Below, piece by piece: positions 2,563 through 32,827 of a stretch of DNA of 32,827 nucleotides. Numbering within the stretch: position 1 is the stretch's first letter; every line of letters starts with the position of its first letter. The DNA is from Aureispira sp. (GTDB lineage: Bacteria; Bacteroidota; Bacteroidia; Chitinophagales; Saprospiraceae): the NCBI GenBank assembly GCA_024222455.1, contig JAAEPD010000178.1, forward strand, positions 1 through 32,827, given 5' to 3'. Under the pieces are notes generated by a model, which made no database searches, was not told the origin of the DNA, and saw only the letters and a program-made list of their open reading frames with translations. Made by a program: the position numbers and the translations under genes.

Positions 2563-4401
2563 ATGAAGCAGATCTATCTAATCTTACTTTTCTTGTTGTC
2601 TATTTCAATGCTAAAGGCACAAGACCCTCATGCTCCTGAACGTTCTTTTGCACGTGCAAGTTTGGCTCCTTTTTATCATGGGGTTGCTTCTGGCGATCCT
2701 ATGGATGATCGAGTTATTATTTGGACACGTGTAACTACTACAGACCCTTCTGAATCTGTAAAATGGCGAGTGGCTACGGACACAGCTATGACAAATATGA
2801 TTGATTCAGGAATAGTAGTGACCAATGCAGCTAAAGATTATACCGTAAAGGTTGATGTTACAGGCTTACAAGCTAATACTTTTTACTATTATGAGTTTGA
2901 ATCGGATGGATTGTTGTCTATAAGAGGACGCACCAAAACAGCTCCTAAAGGTGATGTAGATAGTTTGCGTTTTGCAATAGTTTCGTGCTCTAGTTATGAT
3001 CATGGTTATTTTAATGCATACAATCGTATTACTTCTCGCAACGATATTTCTGCAGTTATTCACTTAGGTGATTATTACTATGAGTATGCTAATGGAAGTT
3101 ATGGAAATGCTCGTACACCAATGCCAGCCAACGAGATCACTACATTAAGTGATTATCGTATGCGTCATTCTCATTATAAGTTAGATCAAGATTTGATGCG
3201 TGTACATCAGCAATACCCATTTATCTGTGTATGGGATGATCATGAAACAGCCAATGATTCTTATACAACAGGTGCGGATAACCATACTCCAGGTACAGAA
3301 GGAAACTGGATAGATCGTAAAGGTTGGGCTGTGAAAGCTTATTATGAGTGGATGCCACTACGTATGCCAGACCCTGCTGTAGATACACAACGTATTTATA
3401 GAAGATTGCGTTTTGGCGATTTAGTGGAGTTGCACATGTTGGATACTCGCTTGCAAGAGCGTGATGAGCCTGATTTTGCTAATGCTACAGACCCTAATCA
3501 TAAATTGCTCGGAAATGCGCAAATGGATTGGTTGACAACAGGGATGGATACTTCTACTGCTCAGTGGCAAATACTTGGCCAGCAAGTAATGATGGCTCCA
3601 TTAGATATTAACCCTTTACCTTTTGGACAACAATATGCCAATAGCGATCAGTGGGATGGTTATCAGGCAGAGCGTGACAAATTATATGATTCTGTTACAA
3701 CCAATAACATTAATAATATGGTTGTCCTGACAGGAGATATTCATACAGCTTGGGCCAATGATTTGGAAGATGGGAGTACAGATATAGGAGTTGAGTTTGT
3801 TGTGAATAGTGTAACTTCTCCAGGCTTTCCTCTACCAATAGGAGCTGGTGTTATACAGTCTTTGAATTCTCACATGAAATATGTTGATTTGACCAATCAT
3901 GGTTATTACATTTTGGACATAAACAAGACTAGAGCACAAGCAGACTACTATTTTATAGGAACTATTGATAATCCTAGCACTACAGAATCATGGGCTACTT
4001 CTTGGCAAACTCTTAATAATGCGAATCATTTGACCTCATCGGCTGGTGCTTCTATCGCACATCCTCATCAAATTGGTGTTCCTGCGCCATTAGATCCTAG
4101 ATTCTGCCCAATCTTGCCAGTAGAGGTTACTCAAGATGCTACAGAATCTGTATTGTTGGGTGTTTACCCTAATCCTTTCAAAGAGGAATTGAGTATTCAA
4201 TATTCAATAGATAAAGCTACAGATATTCAATTGAGTGTTTCGGATATGATGGGACGTCGTTTGTTGACCAAAGATTTGGGAGAGATAGATGCGGGATTAC
4301 AGCGTTCAATCGTTGATTTGAGTTCATTAGCAGCGGGAACTTATGTAGTGACTTTGCACATGAATGATAAGTTGCAAAATAGAGTAGTCGTTAAACAATA
4401 A
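2563..4401 (+). CDS. PhoD-like alkaline phosphatase/phosphodiesterase with T9SS sorting domain (copy 1)
   Basis: Secreted metallophosphoesterase of the PhoD family that releases phosphate from phosphomono- or diesters. Domains: signal peptide 1-19 (ends KAQ), PhoD N-terminal domain from about 36 (GVASGDP at 40-46, VIIWTR), catalytic domain 130-460, T9SS type A sorting domain about 531-612 (GVYPNPF, then AAGTYVV, ending in VVVKQ). Metal-site motifs are visible: HLGDYYYEY (167-175), WDDHETAND (224-232), GDIHTAWAND (391-400). Classical PhoD uses a Tat signal, but no twin arginine is present here; a Sec signal plus T9SS tail points to the cell surface or release. It is followed 136 bases later by a close paralogue, with a terminator between them, so the two are probably separate transcripts. 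Confidence 0.92.
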   Translation: MKQIYLILLFLLSISMLKAQDPHAPERSFARASLAPFYHGVASGDPMDDRVIIWTRVTTTDPSESVKWRVATDTAMTNMIDSGIVVTNAAKDYTVKVDVTGLQANTFYYYEFESDGLLSIRGRTKTAPKGDVDSLRFAIVSCSSYDHGYFNAYNRITSRNDISAVIHLGDYYYEYANGSYGNARTPMPANEITTLSDYRMRHSHYKLDQDLMRVHQQYPFICVWDDHETANDSYTTGADNHTPGTEGNWIDRKGWAVKAYYEWMPLRMPDPAVDTQRIYRRLRFGDLVELHMLDTRLQERDEPDFANATDPNHKLLGNAQMDWLTTGMDTSTAQWQILGQQVMMAPLDINPLPFGQQYANSDQWDGYQAERDKLYDSVTTNNINNMVVLTGDIHTAWANDLEDGSTDIGVEFVVNSVTSPGFPLPIGAGVIQSLNSHMKYVDLTNHGYYILDINKTRAQADYYFIGTIDNPSTTESWATSWQTLNNANHLTSSAGASIAHPHQIGVPAPLDPRFCPILPVEVTQDATESVLLGVYPNPFKEELSIQYSIDKATDIQLSVSDMMGRRLLTKDLGEIDAGLQRSIVDLSSLAAGTYVVTLHMNDKLQNRVVVKQ

Positions 4402-4537: not shown

Positions 4538-6385
4538 ATGAAACAGTTTAGTTTACTTATTTGCTTTATGCTGATCTCTATGGGGGTGTTTGCCCAAGGG
4601 GCAGATCCTCATGCTCCTGAACGTTCTTTTGCACGTGCAAGCTTGGCTCCTTTTTATCATGGAGTAGCTTCTGGTGATCCTTTGCAGGATCGAGTTATTA
4701 TTTGGACTCGTGTGACAACTACAGACCCTACAGAGTCTGTAAAATGGCGAGTAGCTACAGATACAGGAATGGTAAATGCTATTGATTCAGGAATAGTAGT
4801 GACTGATGCAACTAAAGATTATACTGTAAAGGTGGATGTAATGAATTTACAGCCCAATACTTTTTATTATTATGAGTTTGAAGCTGATGGGATGTTATCG
4901 GTACGTGGACGTACTAAGACCGCCCCTAAAGGAGATGTGGATAGTTTACGTTTTGCAGTAGTTTCCTGTTCTAACTATGCCGGAGGTTATTTTAATGCTT
5001 ATAACAGAATAACAGCTCGTAATGATTTGTCAGCGGTTATTCATTTAGGAGATTATTATTATGAATATGGAACTGGGGGCTTGGGTAATGCTCGTTCTAT
5101 TCAGCCTACTACAGAGATCACTACTTTGAGTGATTATCGTATGCGTCATTCGCACTATAAGTTAGATCAGGATTTGATGCGTGTACATCAGCAGTATCCT
5201 TTTATTTGCGTGTGGGATGACCACGAAACAGCTAACAATTCTTATACTGATGGTGCAGAAAACCATACTCCTGGTACAGAGGGCAATTGGATAGACCGAA
5301 AGGGCTGGGCTGTGCAAGCTTATTTTGAGTGGATGCCACTACGCATGCCAGACCCTGCTGTAGATACACAGCGTATCTATAGACGATTTAGATTTGGTGA
5401 TTTGCTAGAGTTACACATGTTGGATACTCGCTTGCAGGAGCGTGATGAGCCTGATTTTGCTAATGCTACAGATCCTAACCATACTATATTGGGAAATGCT
5501 CAGATGGATTGGCTGACAACGGGAATGGACACTTCTACTGCTCAATGGCAAATCGTTGGGCAGCAGGTAATGATGGCTACTTTAGATGCTAATATTTTAC
5601 CTTTTGGTAATCCTATTTATGTTAATAATGACCAGTGGGATGGATATAGAGCAGAGCGCCAGAAGCTTTATGATTCTCTTTCTACCAATAATATAGATAA
5701 TATGGTGGTCTTGACAGGAGATATTCATACTGCTTGGGCCAACAACTTGGAAGATGGTAACAATAAGGCAGGAGTTGAGTTTGTGGTGAATAGTGTGACT
5801 ACACAGAGTTCGCCCTTACCTATAGGTGTAGGGCTTATTCAAACTGCAAACCCACATATGAAGTATATTGATTTGACGAATCATGGTTATTATATTTTGG
5901 ATGTGAATAAAACGAGAACGCAAGCCGATTTTTATTTTGTAGGCACTATTTCGAATCCAAGTACAGTAGAAAATTGGGAAACTTCTTGGTACACCAATAA
6001 TAATGCAAATGAGCTGTCGCAGTCTATAGCAGCGTCTATCGCACATCCTCATCAGATTGGTGTTCCTGCTCCCTTAGACCCTAGGTTTTGTCCCATCTTG
6101 CCAGTAGAGATGACTCAAGATATTACAGAGTCTGTATTGTTGGGAGTTTATCCAAATCCATTCAAAGAGGAGTTGAGTATTCAATATACTCTGGATGAGC
6201 CTACTAATATTCAGTTGATGGTATCTGATATGGTTGGACGAAAATTGTTGGCAAAGGATATGGGGGAGGTAACACCTGGTTTGCAGCGCTCTATTGTCGA
6301 CTTGAGTTCATTAGCAGCAGGAACTTATGTAGTGACTTTGCATATGGATGATAAAATGCAACATCGTGTAGTTGTGAAGCAATAG
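4538..6385 (+). CDS. PhoD-like alkaline phosphatase/phosphodiesterase with T9SS sorting domain (copy 2)
   Basis: Tandem paralogue of the 2563 gene with the same architecture: Sec signal peptide (1-19, ending FAQ), PhoD N-domain, metallophosphoesterase core with HLGDYYYEY, WDDHETANN and GDIHTAWANN, and a T9SS sorting domain ending VVVKQ. Length is 615 against 612 residues. Most of the mature protein is identical, but copy 2 differs in loops near the active site (after HLGDYYYEY and around the GDIHTAW motif) and in the ND to NN changes following two motifs, so substrate range could differ. Third-position differences are numerous, so this is not a very recent duplication. A terminator follows at 6420-6458. 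Confidence 0.92.
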   Translation: MKQFSLLICFMLISMGVFAQGADPHAPERSFARASLAPFYHGVASGDPLQDRVIIWTRVTTTDPTESVKWRVATDTGMVNAIDSGIVVTDATKDYTVKVDVMNLQPNTFYYYEFEADGMLSVRGRTKTAPKGDVDSLRFAVVSCSNYAGGYFNAYNRITARNDLSAVIHLGDYYYEYGTGGLGNARSIQPTTEITTLSDYRMRHSHYKLDQDLMRVHQQYPFICVWDDHETANNSYTDGAENHTPGTEGNWIDRKGWAVQAYFEWMPLRMPDPAVDTQRIYRRFRFGDLLELHMLDTRLQERDEPDFANATDPNHTILGNAQMDWLTTGMDTSTAQWQIVGQQVMMATLDANILPFGNPIYVNNDQWDGYRAERQKLYDSLSTNNIDNMVVLTGDIHTAWANNLEDGNNKAGVEFVVNSVTTQSSPLPIGVGLIQTANPHMKYIDLTNHGYYILDVNKTRTQADFYFVGTISNPSTVENWETSWYTNNNANELSQSIAASIAHPHQIGVPAPLDPRFCPILPVEMTQDITESVLLGVYPNPFKEELSIQYTLDEPTNIQLMVSDMVGRKLLAKDMGEVTPGLQRSIVDLSSLAAGTYVVTLHMDDKMQHRVVVKQ

Positions 6386-11471: not shown

Positions 11472-12674
11472 ATGAGCAAACAAATTTTATTACTTCTCTT
11501 TTTGGCCTGTTCAGCGTTTTGGGCGCAAGGACAAACAACAAAAACAGAAATTATATACCTAGAAAATCCATCTTTTGAGGATATGCCTAGAGCAGGACGC
11601 AGCCCATCTGGATGGGAGGATTGTGGCCAAGCTGGAGAAACACCTCCAGATGTTCAACCTTATGGTGGGTTTAATGTAACTAAAACAGCACAAGATGGGT
11701 CAACCTATTTAGGATTGGTTACGCGCGACAATAAAACATGGGAAGCTGTAGGGCAGCGCCTTTCTAAACCTTTGAAAAAAGGAGGATGTTATAACTTCTC
11801 TTTGCAGCTGTGCAAATCAGGTTCTTATATTAGCCCAACTAAAAGAGACCAAAATAAGTTGACTAACTTTGAACGAGGAGTTACTATTCGAGTTTGGGCT
11901 GGTAATAGCTATTGTGATCGTGCAGAGTTGTTAGATCAGACCGATATTGTAGATAATACCTATTGGAAGGGATACAACATGAAGTTTAATCCTAAGGATA
12001 ATAACTATTCATTTATTATTATAGAGGCTTATTACAAGACACCTACTTTGTTTTTTTATAATGGTAATATCTTAATTGATAATGCTTCTGAAATTTCGTC
12101 TTGTAATATCCCATTAGACACAGATCCTTTGGCTAGTAATGATCCTAAAAAGATAAATAAAAGTCCTGGAGATAATACAATTGATGATCCTTTGGCTACA
12201 AAAGATCCAGACCCAGAAACGGACCCTAATAATACAGATAATAATAATACAACAGCCAACAACGAGAATCTAGAAGATAAAGGGAATTTTGACCCAGATA
12301 AAATTAAGAAAGAGGATATAAAAGTAGGACAGACCTATCGTCTAGAAAACCTATATTTTCCAGCAGATTCTTCTAATATTACACGTAATGCAGAGAAGGT
12401 CTTGATGAAATTATATACTTTCTTAGAGAAAAACCCTGGTGTGGCAATTGAAGTTGGTGGGCACACTAATGGCTTGCCTCCAGATGATTATTGTGATAAC
12501 TTATCTACAAATAGAGCTAAAAATGTAGAGGCTTACTTGACGCGTCATGGCATCTCTAGCAAACGTATTACACACAAAGGTTATGGCAAACGTAAGCCTA
12601 TTGATAGTAATGAGTCTAAACTTGGTCGACAGCGAAACCAACGAGTCGAAATAAAGATAACGGAGGTCAATTGA
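11472..12674 (+). CDS. OmpA-family outer-membrane/peptidoglycan-associated protein with N-terminal sandwich domain
   Basis: Signal peptide 1-20 (ending AQGQ) leads into a beta-rich domain from about 27 to 220 that begins LENPSFEDMP and looks like a carbohydrate-binding or galactose-binding-type sandwich. A low-complexity Asp/Asn/Pro/Thr linker follows (about 222-270, with repeated DPLA.. units), then an OmpA C-terminal domain (about 290-400): YFPADSSNITRNAEKVL, GGHTNG, LSTNRAKNV, GYGKRKP. The usual Asp of GHTD, one of the diaminopimelate-binding residues, is Asn here, whereas the Arg of LSTNRA is kept. It probably tethers the outer membrane to peptidoglycan. A TATATTTG element at 11421-11428 may be its -7 box although no good -33 box is seen. 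A strong terminator follows. Confidence 0.88.
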   Translation: MSKQILLLLFLACSAFWAQGQTTKTEIIYLENPSFEDMPRAGRSPSGWEDCGQAGETPPDVQPYGGFNVTKTAQDGSTYLGLVTRDNKTWEAVGQRLSKPLKKGGCYNFSLQLCKSGSYISPTKRDQNKLTNFERGVTIRVWAGNSYCDRAELLDQTDIVDNTYWKGYNMKFNPKDNNYSFIIIEAYYKTPTLFFYNGNILIDNASEISSCNIPLDTDPLASNDPKKINKSPGDNTIDDPLATKDPDPETDPNNTDNNNTTANNENLEDKGNFDPDKIKKEDIKVGQTYRLENLYFPADSSNITRNAEKVLMKLYTFLEKNPGVAIEVGGHTNGLPPDDYCDNLSTNRAKNVEAYLTRHGISSKRITHKGYGKRKPIDSNESKLGRQRNQRVEIKITEVN

Positions 12675-12694: not shown

Positions 12695-12734
12695 AAAAAA
12701 GGCCAAATCTTTTCGAAAAGATTTGGCCTTTTTA
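12695..12734 (+). terminator. Terminator of the OmpA-family gene
   Basis: The perfect stem GGCCAAATCTTTT / AAAAGATTTGGCC (within 12701-12728) is flanked by A-run and T-run, a classic bidirectional-looking intrinsic terminator. Confidence 0.9.
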
Positions 12735-12799
12735 TTTGATTATGAGTTGGTTATGCTGTGTTTTTCTTTTTGGATTTTTAATGTTTAAGCTTTTCTTGG

Positions 12800-12831
12800 T
12801 TTGAAGCTAGTTGCATAAGAGATTATATTTG
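12800..12831 (+). promoter_or_regulatory. Strong promoter in a gene-free region, upstream of candidate small RNA
   Basis: TTTG (12800-12803), 20 bases, then TATATTTG (12824-12831) matches the Bacteroidota consensus exactly and has the same form as the tRNA promoter in this window. No ORF follows on this strand, only the structured segment 12837-13004. Confidence 0.7.
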
Positions 12832-12836
12832 TAATA

Positions 12837-13004
12837 GATAGTGAGGTAGTATTGGGAAGTGCAAGGCACTATCTAAAATTTATCGTCTCATGATAAAAAA
12901 TATTTCCAAACATGAGAGTGTTTGGAAAGGGTTAATTTGGGTTTCAATTGTAGTGTTTTAAGTTTAAGAAGATCATTCTCTTTAGAGGATGATCTTTCTT
13001 TTTT
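12837..13004 (+). ncRNA. Candidate structured small RNA (~168 nt), family unknown
   Basis: This segment begins ~6 bases after a consensus -7 box and ends in an intrinsic terminator with its T-tract on the plus strand, yet it encodes no protein. Predicted helices: a 9-bp perfect stem TAGATAGTG/CACTATCTA (12835-12843 with 12867-12875, starting at the expected 5' end); a 6-bp stem TTTATC/GATAAA (12879-12884 with 12892-12897); a 10-bp perfect stem TTTCCAAACA/TGTTTGGAAA (12903-12912 with 12919-12928); and the terminator stem (12969-12996). Loop TCTCA (12886-12890) is fully complementary to loop TGAGA (12913-12917), allowing a kissing interaction. It shows no motifs of SRP RNA, tmRNA, RNase P or 6S RNA. 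Confidence 0.6.
12969..13004 (+). terminator. Terminator of the candidate small RNA
   Basis: Stem AAGATCATTCTC / GAGGATGATCTT (12969-12980 with 12985-12996, one wobble pair), loop TTTA, then TCTTTTTT. The T-run is on the plus strand. Read from the minus strand, where the SUI1 gene ends at 13008, the stem is not followed by T, so it fits the small RNA better. Confidence 0.75.
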
Positions 13005-13007
13005 ATG

Positions 13008-13346
13008 CTAACCACCTGATTTTTTAGTGTTGCTGTAGCCTAAGCCTTTTAGCAGCTCTACTACCTTTAGAACATTATTGCCTTGCACTATAATTTCGCC
13101 ATTTTTAGCACTACCACCCACGCCACATTTGCTTTTTAGTGTTTTTCCTAGATCTTTAAGGTCATCATCAGTACCTACAAAACCTGTAACGAGTGTTACG
13201 TCTTTACCTTTGCGTTGTTTGCGATCGAGTTGAACACGAAGTTTCTGCTGATTAGGGTTTAGTGTTTCTTCTACATCATTATCATCATCCCAAACAAAAT
13301 CAGGATCGGTAGAATAGAAGTTTAGTTTTTTCTTTTTTTTGGCCAC
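13008..13346 (-). CDS. SUI1/eIF1-family translation factor (YciH-like)
   Basis: A 112-residue protein with a Lys-rich start (MAKKKKKL), an acidic stretch (about 14-27), and a SUI1 domain at about 35-108: LRVQLDRKQRKGKDVTLVTG, then KSKCGVGGSAKNGEIIVQGN and a final VVELLKGLGY helix. The Gly-rich CGVGGSAKNGEI loop is the family signature. YciH-type proteins bind the small ribosomal subunit and influence initiation fidelity. The gene lies 24 bases downstream of the thioredoxin-like gene on the same strand and is probably co-transcribed. Confidence 0.9.
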   Translation of the reverse strand: MAKKKKKLNFYSTDPDFVWDDDNDVEETLNPNQQKLRVQLDRKQRKGKDVTLVTGFVGTDDDLKDLGKTLKSKCGVGGSAKNGEIIVQGNNVLKVVELLKGLGYSNTKKSGG

Positions 13347-30119: not shown

Positions 30120-32827
30120 ATGAGAAAAACATTGTACCTACTTTGGGTCTGTGTGATGGTTTCGTTGACGGTGAATGCACAACATACTCCTTCGACTCAC
30201 AATCATAACCAGAACACGCCAATCCCTCATGGCCAACCAGGACATGAATGTGGAACAGAATTTACGCCTGCTGATATCCAAAACTTGCGTAATTTTATAA
30301 AAGACTATCATCATATAGAGCAAAACTTTTTGCAAAACCGGGCTCTATTACCAATAGAGTATATTCCTATAAAAGCACATATAGTACGAACTAGTGGAGG
30401 AACTGGAGGTTTAACTGTGACACAATTGAATGATGCAATTGATAATATGAATAATTATTATATCAATGCAAATATGCAGTTTTACTTATGTAATGGAATC
30501 AACTATATAGATGATAACACCTACTATGATTTTGATGCAGCAGATGAGACTGCAATGCATACTGCTCATGGTGTTACAAATTTAGTAAATATCTATTTTT
30601 GTAATTCTGTAACAAGTGGTGGTAGTAGCCTTTGTGGATATGCCTATTCTAGTACTAAAGATATTATCTTAATGGCTAACAGCTGTGCTATAAACGGAAG
30701 TACACTACCTCATGAAGTAGGCCATTTCTTTTCATTGCCTCATACACATGGTGGAACCAATGGAACATTAACAGGAGAATTAGTTAATGGATCTAATTGT
30801 TCTAGTGAAGGAGATTTTATTTGTGATACACCTGCTGATCCTCAATTAGGAAGTGCTAATGTAAATTCTTCTTGTGTATATAATGGAACAGCGCCATACA
30901 CAAGTGGTGGCGGATTAGACGCAAATGGAGATCCATTTGCACCTAACCCACGTAATATCATGTCTTATTCACGTAAGGCTTGTCGTGATTTCTTTTCTCC
31001 AGGGCAATATGCTCGTATGTATACTTATGCGACAACAACGCGTAATTATTTTACTTGTCCACAGTTTAATGTAGATTATACAGGAACACCAAACGGAAGT
31101 TGCCAAAATAGTCTAACAGCTGTATTTACTTCTACAACTGCAGGTGCTAACTCTTACATGTGGGATGTAGATGGAAACGGAACAACAGATTATACTACAG
31201 CCAACTGTACACATCTATATTCTACACCAGGTAGCTATGATGTTCGATTGACTATTGTAAATGCAAGTTCAGATACCATTGCGAAAACTAAAGTAGGTTA
31301 CATTAATGTAGGATCAGCATTGAACCTTCCTTTTACAGAAGACTTTGAAACTTTTTCGAGTGGCTTGCAAAATGGATGGACCAATAATGATGATGATGAT
31401 TATGTATGGAGCGCCAATTCTGGAACTACTCCATCTGGAGGCGGGGGGAATACTGGTCCAGCGGTAGATTATACGCTTGGAAATGCTTCAGGGACATATA
31501 TGTATACAGAAGCATCCAATGTTACTGCTGGAGATGAAGCTATTCTAATCACACCATGTATCACACTCAATCAGAGTAGTCCTACCTTATCTTTTGCTTA
31601 CCATATGTGGGGTGTCAATAGTAGTCAAATGGGAGATCTGCATGTTGATATTAATAGTGGAGGAACATGGACAAATGACATAACTCCAGTTTTATCAGGC
31701 AATCAACAAGCCAATCAAGCAGCTGCTTATCTAATAAAAAATGTAGATTTATCAGCCTATACTGGTCAAGCAATCCAGATTAGATTTAGAGCAGTAAGAG
31801 GTTCTGGGTTTACAGGAGATATAGCTATTGATGACGTTTCTATTACAGGTTCAGGAACAACGCCAGAGATGGATGTAACAGGAAATGGAACCTCTATCAC
31901 AGATGGCGATGCAACACCAGCTGTAGCAGACGATACGGACTTTGGTAATGCAGATGTAACGACAGGAATGGTGAATCATACCTTCACAATTACAAATAGT
32001 GGAACAGGCGATTTAGCCTTGACAGGTGGAACGGTAGTCGTAATAGGTGGTACACATGCATCTGACTTTACGGTTACACAACAAGCGACAAGTCCAGTAA
32101 CATCAGGAGGAGGAACAACAACCTTTATTATACAATTCGATCCAAGTGCAGCAGGTTTACGCAGTGCAACAGTAAGCATAGCGAATGATGATGCAGATGA
32201 GAATCCATACAACTTCTCTATCCAAGGAAATGGAACAGTTGTAACAACACCAGAGATAGATGTAGCAGGAAATGGAACATCGATTACAGATGGCGATGCA
32301 ACACCAGCAGTGAGTGATGATACAGACTTTGGCAATGCAGATGTAACCACAGGAATGGTAAATCATACCTTCACAATTACCAATAGTGGAACAGGCGATT
32401 TAGCCTTGACAGGAGGCACTGTAGTAGTAATCGGAGGTACACATGCATCTGACTTTACGGTAACACAACAAGCAACAAGTCCAGTAACATCTGGAGGCGG
32501 TACAACAACCTTTATTATACAATTTGATCCAAGTGCAGCAGGTTTACGCAGTGCAACAGTAAGCATAGCGAATGATGATGCAGATGAGAATCCATACAAT
32601 TTCTCTATCCAAGGAAATGGAACAGTACCAGCAACTCCAGAGATGGATGTAGCAGGAAATGGAACATCTATAGCAGATAATGATGCAACACCATCATTAA
32701 CAGATGATACGGACTTTGGTAATGCAGATGTAACGACAGGAATGGTGAATCATACCTTCACAATTACCAATAGTGGAACAGGCGATTTAGCCTTGACAGG
32801 AGGCACAGTTGTAGTAATCGGAGGCAC
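30120..32827 (+). CDS. Secreted M43 (pappalysin-type) metalloprotease with PKD, MAM-like and choice-of-anchor-D repeats (3' end outside window)
   Basis: The frame from ATG 30120 is open to the window edge (902 codons), so it is partial. Order: signal peptide 1-21 (ending VNAQ); His-rich propeptide; M43 catalytic domain about 70-305 with zinc motif [11 protein letters not shown] (His198, Glu199, His202, His208) and Met-turn Met281 in [21 protein letters not shown] domain about 330-398 ([25 protein letters not shown]); MAM/laminin-G-like sandwich about 400-578 (FTEDFETF...[10 protein letters not shown]); then near-identical 129-residue choice-of-anchor-D repeats ([30 protein letters not shown]) from about residue 582. 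A T9SS tail is expected beyond the window, as usual for such proteins. Confidence 0.9.
31863..32827 (+). repeat. Tandem 387-bp coding repeats (2.5 units in window)
   Basis: Unit starts are at 31863, 32250 and 32637, each exactly 387 bp (129 codons) apart; the third is cut by the window end. Between units 1 and 2 a stretch of 74 bases is identical (32139-32212 and 32526-32599). Each unit encodes one choice-of-anchor-D/HYDIN-like immunoglobulin-type domain. Confidence 0.92.

Follow-up and report, generated by a model that had tools for sequence, protein, structure and literature searches.

A candidate intergenic small RNA gene of Aureispira sp. and its possible relation to a box-plus-hairpin RNA element of Saprospiraceae

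The gap between two convergent genes of Aureispira sp. raises the question of whether it holds a small RNA (sRNA) gene of its own or only the ends of two converging transcripts. The locus is on contig C178 of the 7.76 Mb draft genome of the host, and the whole stretch of DNA analysed (32,827 nt) is referred to as the window. Upstream lies the gene for an OmpA-family protein (11472-12674, plus strand; PF00691, E 4.8e-19), which has relatives in four of the named genomes (Aureispira sp. CCB-QB1 at 60% in the best segment, an Aureispira MAG at 56% and two Saprospira grandis strains at 52%); on these relatives the host is placed with Bacteroidota of the Saprospiraceae type. Downstream, the convergent gene for a SUI1-family translation factor occupies 13008-13346 on the minus strand (PF01253, E 9.4e-18). 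A terminator-like hairpin at 12696-12733, detected on both strands by the terminator scan, is located 3' of the OmpA-family gene and separates it from the candidate sRNA. The distance from the end of this hairpin (12733) to the SUI1 gene is 274 nt; the first-pass annotation gave a gap of 270 bases. Measured between the OmpA stop (12674) and 13008, where the SUI1 gene ends, the gap is 333 nt. Elsewhere in the window, two adjacent PhoD-type phosphatases (2563-4401 and 4538-6385) each carry a Por secretion tail, and a long frame at 30120-32825, which runs off the contig end, contains at least three copies of a domain of about 114 aa and a motif suggestive of a secreted metalloprotease.

The gap is poor in reading frames. 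There is no plus-strand frame of at least 60 aa between 12674 and 14328 and no frame longer than 29 aa overlapping 12740-13007, which upholds the earlier claim that the region lacks coding potential. Short frames in the gap include a 23-aa ATG frame (12890-12961) and a 29-aa TTG frame (12922-13011). A small-protein gene could use one of these, but the first crosses hairpin 3 and the second crosses the terminator (both described below), and frames so short are common by chance; such a gene is hardly credible here.

A promoter-like pair of the Bacteroidota primary-sigma type, TTTG-N20-TATATTTG, is found on the plus strand at 12800-12831, with TTTG at 12800-12803 followed by N20 and by TATATTTG at 12824-12831, as the first-pass annotation had it. 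For the primary sigma factor of Bacteroides fragilis, the consensus cited is TAnnTTTG (-7) with TTTG at about -33 (PMC7366714). With a spacer of 19-21, the pattern matches three times in the window against 0.90 expected (7 of 100 shuffles reach three), and by arithmetic about 0.004 matches would be expected on the plus strand of the gap. Across the host genome there are 429 matches against 219 for the reversed control, about a twofold excess, so about half of single matches may be due to chance. A scan for sigma70-type promoters was at chance level (3 found, 3.0 expected). The earlier description of an 'exact promoter' is fair as far as the consensus match goes, and has to be weighed against how often the reversed pattern occurs; as a sequence match, the candidate sRNA has a putative promoter of its own.

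The proposed transcript, of about 170 nt, would extend from 12834 to 13004 on the plus strand, the start site being placed by the -7 box. Three hairpins are predicted in it. Hairpin 1 (12835-12875) has a perfect outer stem of 9 bp (12835-12843 with 12867-12875) and an inner hairpin of 5 bp with the loop GGGA; it was noted previously, and only its distance from the -7 box needs correction, as it begins 3 bases past the box and not about 6. Hairpins 2 and 3 were found as first described. Hairpin 2 (12879-12897) has 6 bp (12879-12884 with 12892-12897) and a GUCUCAU loop; the minimum-energy fold lengthens the stem to 8 bp and reduces the loop to CUC. Hairpin 3 (12903-12928) has 10 bp (12903-12912 with 12919-12928), extended to 11 bp in the minimum-energy fold. 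The linker that follows (12929-12965) is unpaired in the minimum-energy fold; its unpaired probability in the ensemble ranges from 0.35 to 0.84 (in 5-nt steps), being highest at 12942-12956 (0.76-0.84) and lowest at 12932-12941 (0.35-0.46). An intrinsic terminator (12968-13003), with a stem at 12968-12997 followed by CTTTTTT, closes the structure, and its T-run is on the plus strand as claimed.

The plus strand between 12832 and 13004 has a folding energy of -47.0 kcal/mol compared with -30.9 ± 3.4 for shuffled sequences (z -4.75; none of 200 shuffles as good). With the terminator removed (12832-12966), z is -3.4 and 1 of 300 shuffles is as good. When 243 consecutive plus-strand tiles of 135 nt were ranked (20 shuffles each), the tile 12826-12960 came seventh; the tiles above it include those of a tRNA gene and of the OmpA terminator. 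For 12832-13004 the advantage over shuffles is even larger on the minus strand (z -6.29), and the strand must therefore be set by the promoter and terminator signals.

The terminator scan of 1001 nt on both strands gave five sites against 0.5 expected: 12968-12997 (plus), 12696-12733 (both strands) and hairpin 3 (both strands). Hairpin 3 has a weak tail on the plus strand. The better T-run is on the minus strand, where TATTTTTTAT follows the stem (12928-12903), so that it resembles an intrinsic terminator of the converging SUI1 gene. In all probability SUI1 transcription ends there on the opposite strand, and the 3' half of the candidate sRNA would therefore be antisense to the 3' end of SUI1. 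The better fold of the minus strand and the second role of hairpin 3, as a terminator on that strand, can account for part of the structure with no need of an sRNA. The locus might then consist only of two converging transcription ends, with hairpin 3 ending SUI1, 12968-12997 stopping plus-strand read-through and the promoter-like pair arising by chance. The TATTTTTTAT tract and the minus-strand z score fit this arrangement, as do the reversed promoter control, with about half as many genome matches, and the failure to find conservation (below). It leaves hairpins 1 and 2 without explanation, however; a strong terminator (12696-12733) is already in place for the OmpA-family gene, and hairpin 1 comes directly after the promoter-like pair. 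We consider this reading unlikely. The same minus-strand fold and terminator-like site (12928-12903) could belong to an RNA derived from the 3' UTR of the SUI1 gene and ending at hairpin 3. The promoter-like pair, hairpins 1 and 2 and the plus-strand T-run would all be unexplained by such an RNA, which has a slim chance of being the product of the locus.

An independent sRNA gene is the simplest reading, because two plus-strand terminators enclose the promoter-like pair and the three hairpins with no plus-strand frame of at least 60 aa. We regard 12834-13004 (plus) as a candidate of this kind, about 170 nt long, with a proposed housekeeping-sigma start and a putatively functional open linker, and hold this to be reasonably probable. 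The gene is well formed, of an ordinary kind and probably real. A housekeeping sigma factor would start transcription at about 12834-12838, and transcription would end at the intrinsic terminator 12968-13003. Hairpins 1-3 would stabilise the RNA and the linker (12929-12965, most open at 12942-12956) would be the functional surface. Most likely it would pair with target mRNAs or be a binding site for an RNA-binding protein of the RRM type, the GibS and FopS sRNAs of Bacteroides being the model. RbpB is an RRM protein, and the host genome encodes two RRM_1 proteins. Hfq was not detected in the host genome by a search whose control was positive in 5 of 14 known genomes. In a test of pairing between the linker and the start regions of 26 genes of the window, 184 of 300 shuffled linkers did as well, so that no signal emerged.

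A kissing or pseudoknot fold had been proposed for the loops of hairpins 2 and 3. UCUCA (12886-12890) and UGAGA (12913-12917) are indeed exact complements, and the complementarity extends to 7 nt (UCUCAUG/CAUGAGA); the chance of at least 5 nt of complementarity between one 7-nt and one 6-nt loop is about 0.0075. The minimum-energy fold shrinks the loops to CUC (hairpin 2) and GAGA (hairpin 3), and the ensemble unpaired values are 0.65 (12887-12891) and 0.61 (12912-12916). The loop duplex contributes -5.3 kcal/mol, against about 3.4 kcal/mol needed to open both loops. Forcing the 7-bp helix between the hairpins gives -38.9 compared with -47.0 kcal/mol, a penalty of about 8 kcal/mol. A co-linear kissing helix in cis would be unlikely on geometric grounds, since only 5 nt (12898-12902) join the two hairpins. 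The complementarity stands, whereas the fold built on it is weakly supported; loop-loop pairing in trans could still occur.

The first-pass annotation had seen no signature of SRP, 6S, tmRNA or RNase P RNA. This agrees with Rfam, where no family reached its gathering threshold on the candidate and a tRNA was the sole match in the whole window; at E <= 5, six sub-threshold matches to the candidate were obtained, all with E >= 0.45. ARAGORN found no tmRNA in the window. With blastn, the candidate sRNA gave one match in its own genome and no second one, none among plasmids and phages, and in 59 other genomes (E <= 0.01) only fragments of 21-34 nt in 6 of them.

Two covariance models were built from the window RNA. 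The first, R1, was made from the single sequence of the whole candidate sRNA and run with the stricter filters of the large-search setting. Matches at E <= 10 were obtained for 40 of the 150 genomes, its own being one of them, with a best non-self E of 3.1e-4. As orthologs these matches are weak. Four of the five non-self alignments listed (L069 twice, L073 and L074) rest mainly on the terminator hairpin, and the fifth (L082) on hairpin 1 and the linker. The second, R3, was also made from the window RNA alone and covers 12834-12965, leaving out the terminator. In 34 genomes including its own, it showed no more than a partial resemblance, with 32 non-self rows at E <= 3 (7 genomes, its own among them) and 26 at E <= 1 in 4 genomes. 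Twenty-four of the latter fall in units of the box-plus-hairpin element described below (G149; G189, which is Aureispira sp. CCB-QB1; G191, the Aureispira MAG; and G021; best E 0.0107), and the remaining two (G149 and G189) have equal scores and probably represent a single place shared by two close genomes.

The best matches to the OmpA and SUI1 proteins in G080 (Saprospira) and G021 are about 2 Mb apart or on different contigs, so these genomes offer no syntenic gap for comparison. The OmpA flanks at L098-L101 gave no R1 match above 12.1 bits, and a second genome of genus g1 was not among the matches listed. The search for conservation gave no ortholog by blastn in 59 other genomes, and the covariance models, run against 149 and 33 others, gave no convincing one. 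The earlier proposal of a structured sRNA gene is thus supported in part, by the intergenic fold with promoter-like and terminator signals on the plus strand.

The element that attracts most of the R3 matches consists of a box, AUUUGGGUUUUAAUUGGGGUGAUUU, followed by a hairpin, mostly with a GGGAA loop. In Aureispira-type genomes it forms tandem arrays of up to 11 units. Twelve loci were examined: L211-L217 (G149), L223 (G191), L224 (G021), L218 (G172), L222 (the Saprospira genome G080) and L221, the one clear copy in the host's own genome (C679:19863-19933, minus strand). The seven loci of G149 contain 7, 5, 3, 1, 1, 3 and 11 units. Their spacings, 89-145 nt, are not consistently multiples of three, which makes a coding element unlikely. 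Counts of GGGAA motifs and of units agree in 11 of the 12 loci; only the Saprospira copy, which lacks GGGAA, differs. A T-run follows the last unit in 11 of the 12 loci, the longest array being the exception. Six loci (L212, L213, L214, L216, L217 and L218) each contain one or two units in which a palindrome-like insert of about 24 nt splits the box after AATT. The single copies in the host genome and in Saprospira are located 3' of a DUF3078 gene (PF11276 in C679), and one G149 array is also 3' of a DUF3078 gene (57-60% identity to it).

Covariation of the element hairpin was analysed by aligning 6 units, some of them near-copies, taken from 3 loci. In this alignment 98.5% of cells are paired (reached by 0 of 500 shuffles), and the covariation score was likewise reached by 0 of 500. 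Changes on both sides were seen for 5 of 11 pairs (9 of 500 shuffles reach this), and the number of pair types was reached by all 500. Upstream, within 130 nt, 8 of the 12 loci have a GG-N10-GC motif, which resembles sigma54 -24/-12 promoters. Letter shuffles of eleven 130-nt upstream stretches contain the motif in 3 to 119 of 1000. Five of the eight loci (L212-L216) share a common upstream sequence and are not independent, and L218, one of the four loci without the motif, has only 23 nt of upstream sequence. In the copy of the host genome (C679) the motif is at -126, not at about -60.

A covariance model of the element built without the window RNA, R2, was run against 199 genomes of the family and matched at E <= 0.01 in 8, two of which (G150 and G148) have no box at <= 2 mismatches. 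Searched by pattern, the box fails as a family-wide feature, since it occurs at 26 places (21 of 100 genomes) and its reversed control at 34. In the host genome the pattern gave 10 matches at <= 2 mismatches and its reversed control 11. No Rfam family reached gathering on five element loci; below threshold, assorted families gave seven matches at E <= 1 on three of the five, the best at 41 bits against a gathering threshold of 90. A literature search found no report of the Aureispira arrays, an absence that is weakly supported, as the search returned mostly unrelated work. Covarying, amplified in tandem and unmatched in Rfam at gathering, this RNA element is in our view a more valuable lead than the window sRNA.

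Does the window RNA belong to this element family? In the linker, 25 of 29 letters at 12934-12962 match the box AUUUGGGUUUUAAUUGGGGUGAUUU, which stands ahead of the terminator as in the family. The score of this match against 11 element loci was reached by 0 of 400 shuffles of 12929-12965 and 1 of 400 shuffles of 12740-12965. It is a selected match, since the family was found through its resemblance to the window. With R2, the window site scores 27.0 bits, corresponding to E 0.076 in the host genome, and the next-best site in the window 15.1 bits. Sites other than clear copies reach 27.5 bits (G121) and 27.2 bits (G015) in two other genomes. Elsewhere in the host genome, at G000:C370:9682-9747 (L167), a weak box-like site precedes a hairpin whose loop contains GGGA; its R2 score of 26.8 bits is as strong as the window match.

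The other regions compared with the element loci do not go beyond shuffles (promoter, 40 of 400; hairpin 1, 388 of 400; hairpins 2-3, 319 of 400; terminator, 310 of 400). The hairpin after the window box has the loop UUUA and not GGGAA, a GGGA loop being located in hairpin 1 instead, and the window RNA has no tandem units. GG-N10-GC is absent from the region before the window RNA (12735-12835). The window RNA could be a diverged member of the Saprospiraceae box-plus-hairpin family, or a borrower of its module, working through the box. This is compatible with an independent sRNA and not exclusive of it. The box letters and their shuffles, the 24 of 26 R3 rows in element units, the clear copy in the host's own genome and the R2 score at the window site argue for membership. 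The selected nature of the match, the R2 E value with equally high scores in two other genomes, the absence of likeness in the promoter, hairpin and terminator regions, the missing GG-N10-GC and the fact that R3 at E <= 3 matches neither the C679 copy nor the Saprospira copies argue against it, and we regard membership as doubtful though worth entertaining. A fuller version would place the window RNA at the margin of a hitherto undescribed RNA family of Saprospiraceae in which the box is a protein- or RNA-binding module. The arrays, with their sigma54-like motifs, could then act as multivalent sponges, and the window RNA, under a housekeeping promoter, as a single-site partner or competitor. 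We think this rather unlikely.

Read as an independent sRNA, the window RNA can be set beside known sRNAs of Bacteroidota; a non-exhaustive literature search found no sRNA studies in Saprospiraceae. Rfp18 of Flavobacterium psychrophilum is an independent sRNA with strong predicted structure and a pairing region predicted in the third stem-loop (PMC9723704). Like the window RNA as proposed here, it is independent and structured and has a Bacteroidota host. The likeness is one of description; Rfp18 is conserved in its genus and was tested by deletion.

The FopS sRNAs (Rfam RF04319) have canonical sigma-ABfr promoters and a single-stranded stretch followed by a terminator hairpin, and are bound by RbpB (PMC11697453). 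The 3' part of the window RNA shares this layout of open stretch and terminator. For FopS, the published consensus is given without 5' hairpins and with 14 members in its host, whereas the window RNA has one match in its own genome. As a member of RF04319 the window RNA was rejected (21.4 bits against a gathering threshold of 56; E 0.45).

GibS of Bacteroides thetaiotaomicron is an intergenic, trans-encoded sRNA of 145 nt with a single-stranded seed, from a host with no obvious Hfq (PMC7366714). It comes from the same phylum as the window RNA, and both are intergenic. The seed of GibS is in its 5' portion, whereas the 5' part of the window RNA is a hairpin and its open segment is 3', a comparison of layouts. 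In the model drawn from GibS and FopS/RbpB in Bacteroides, the open segment pairs near start codons (PMC7366714, PMC11697453). The window sRNA is a candidate with clear boundaries in a genome without detectable Hfq, the situation reported for Bacteroides (PMC7366714).
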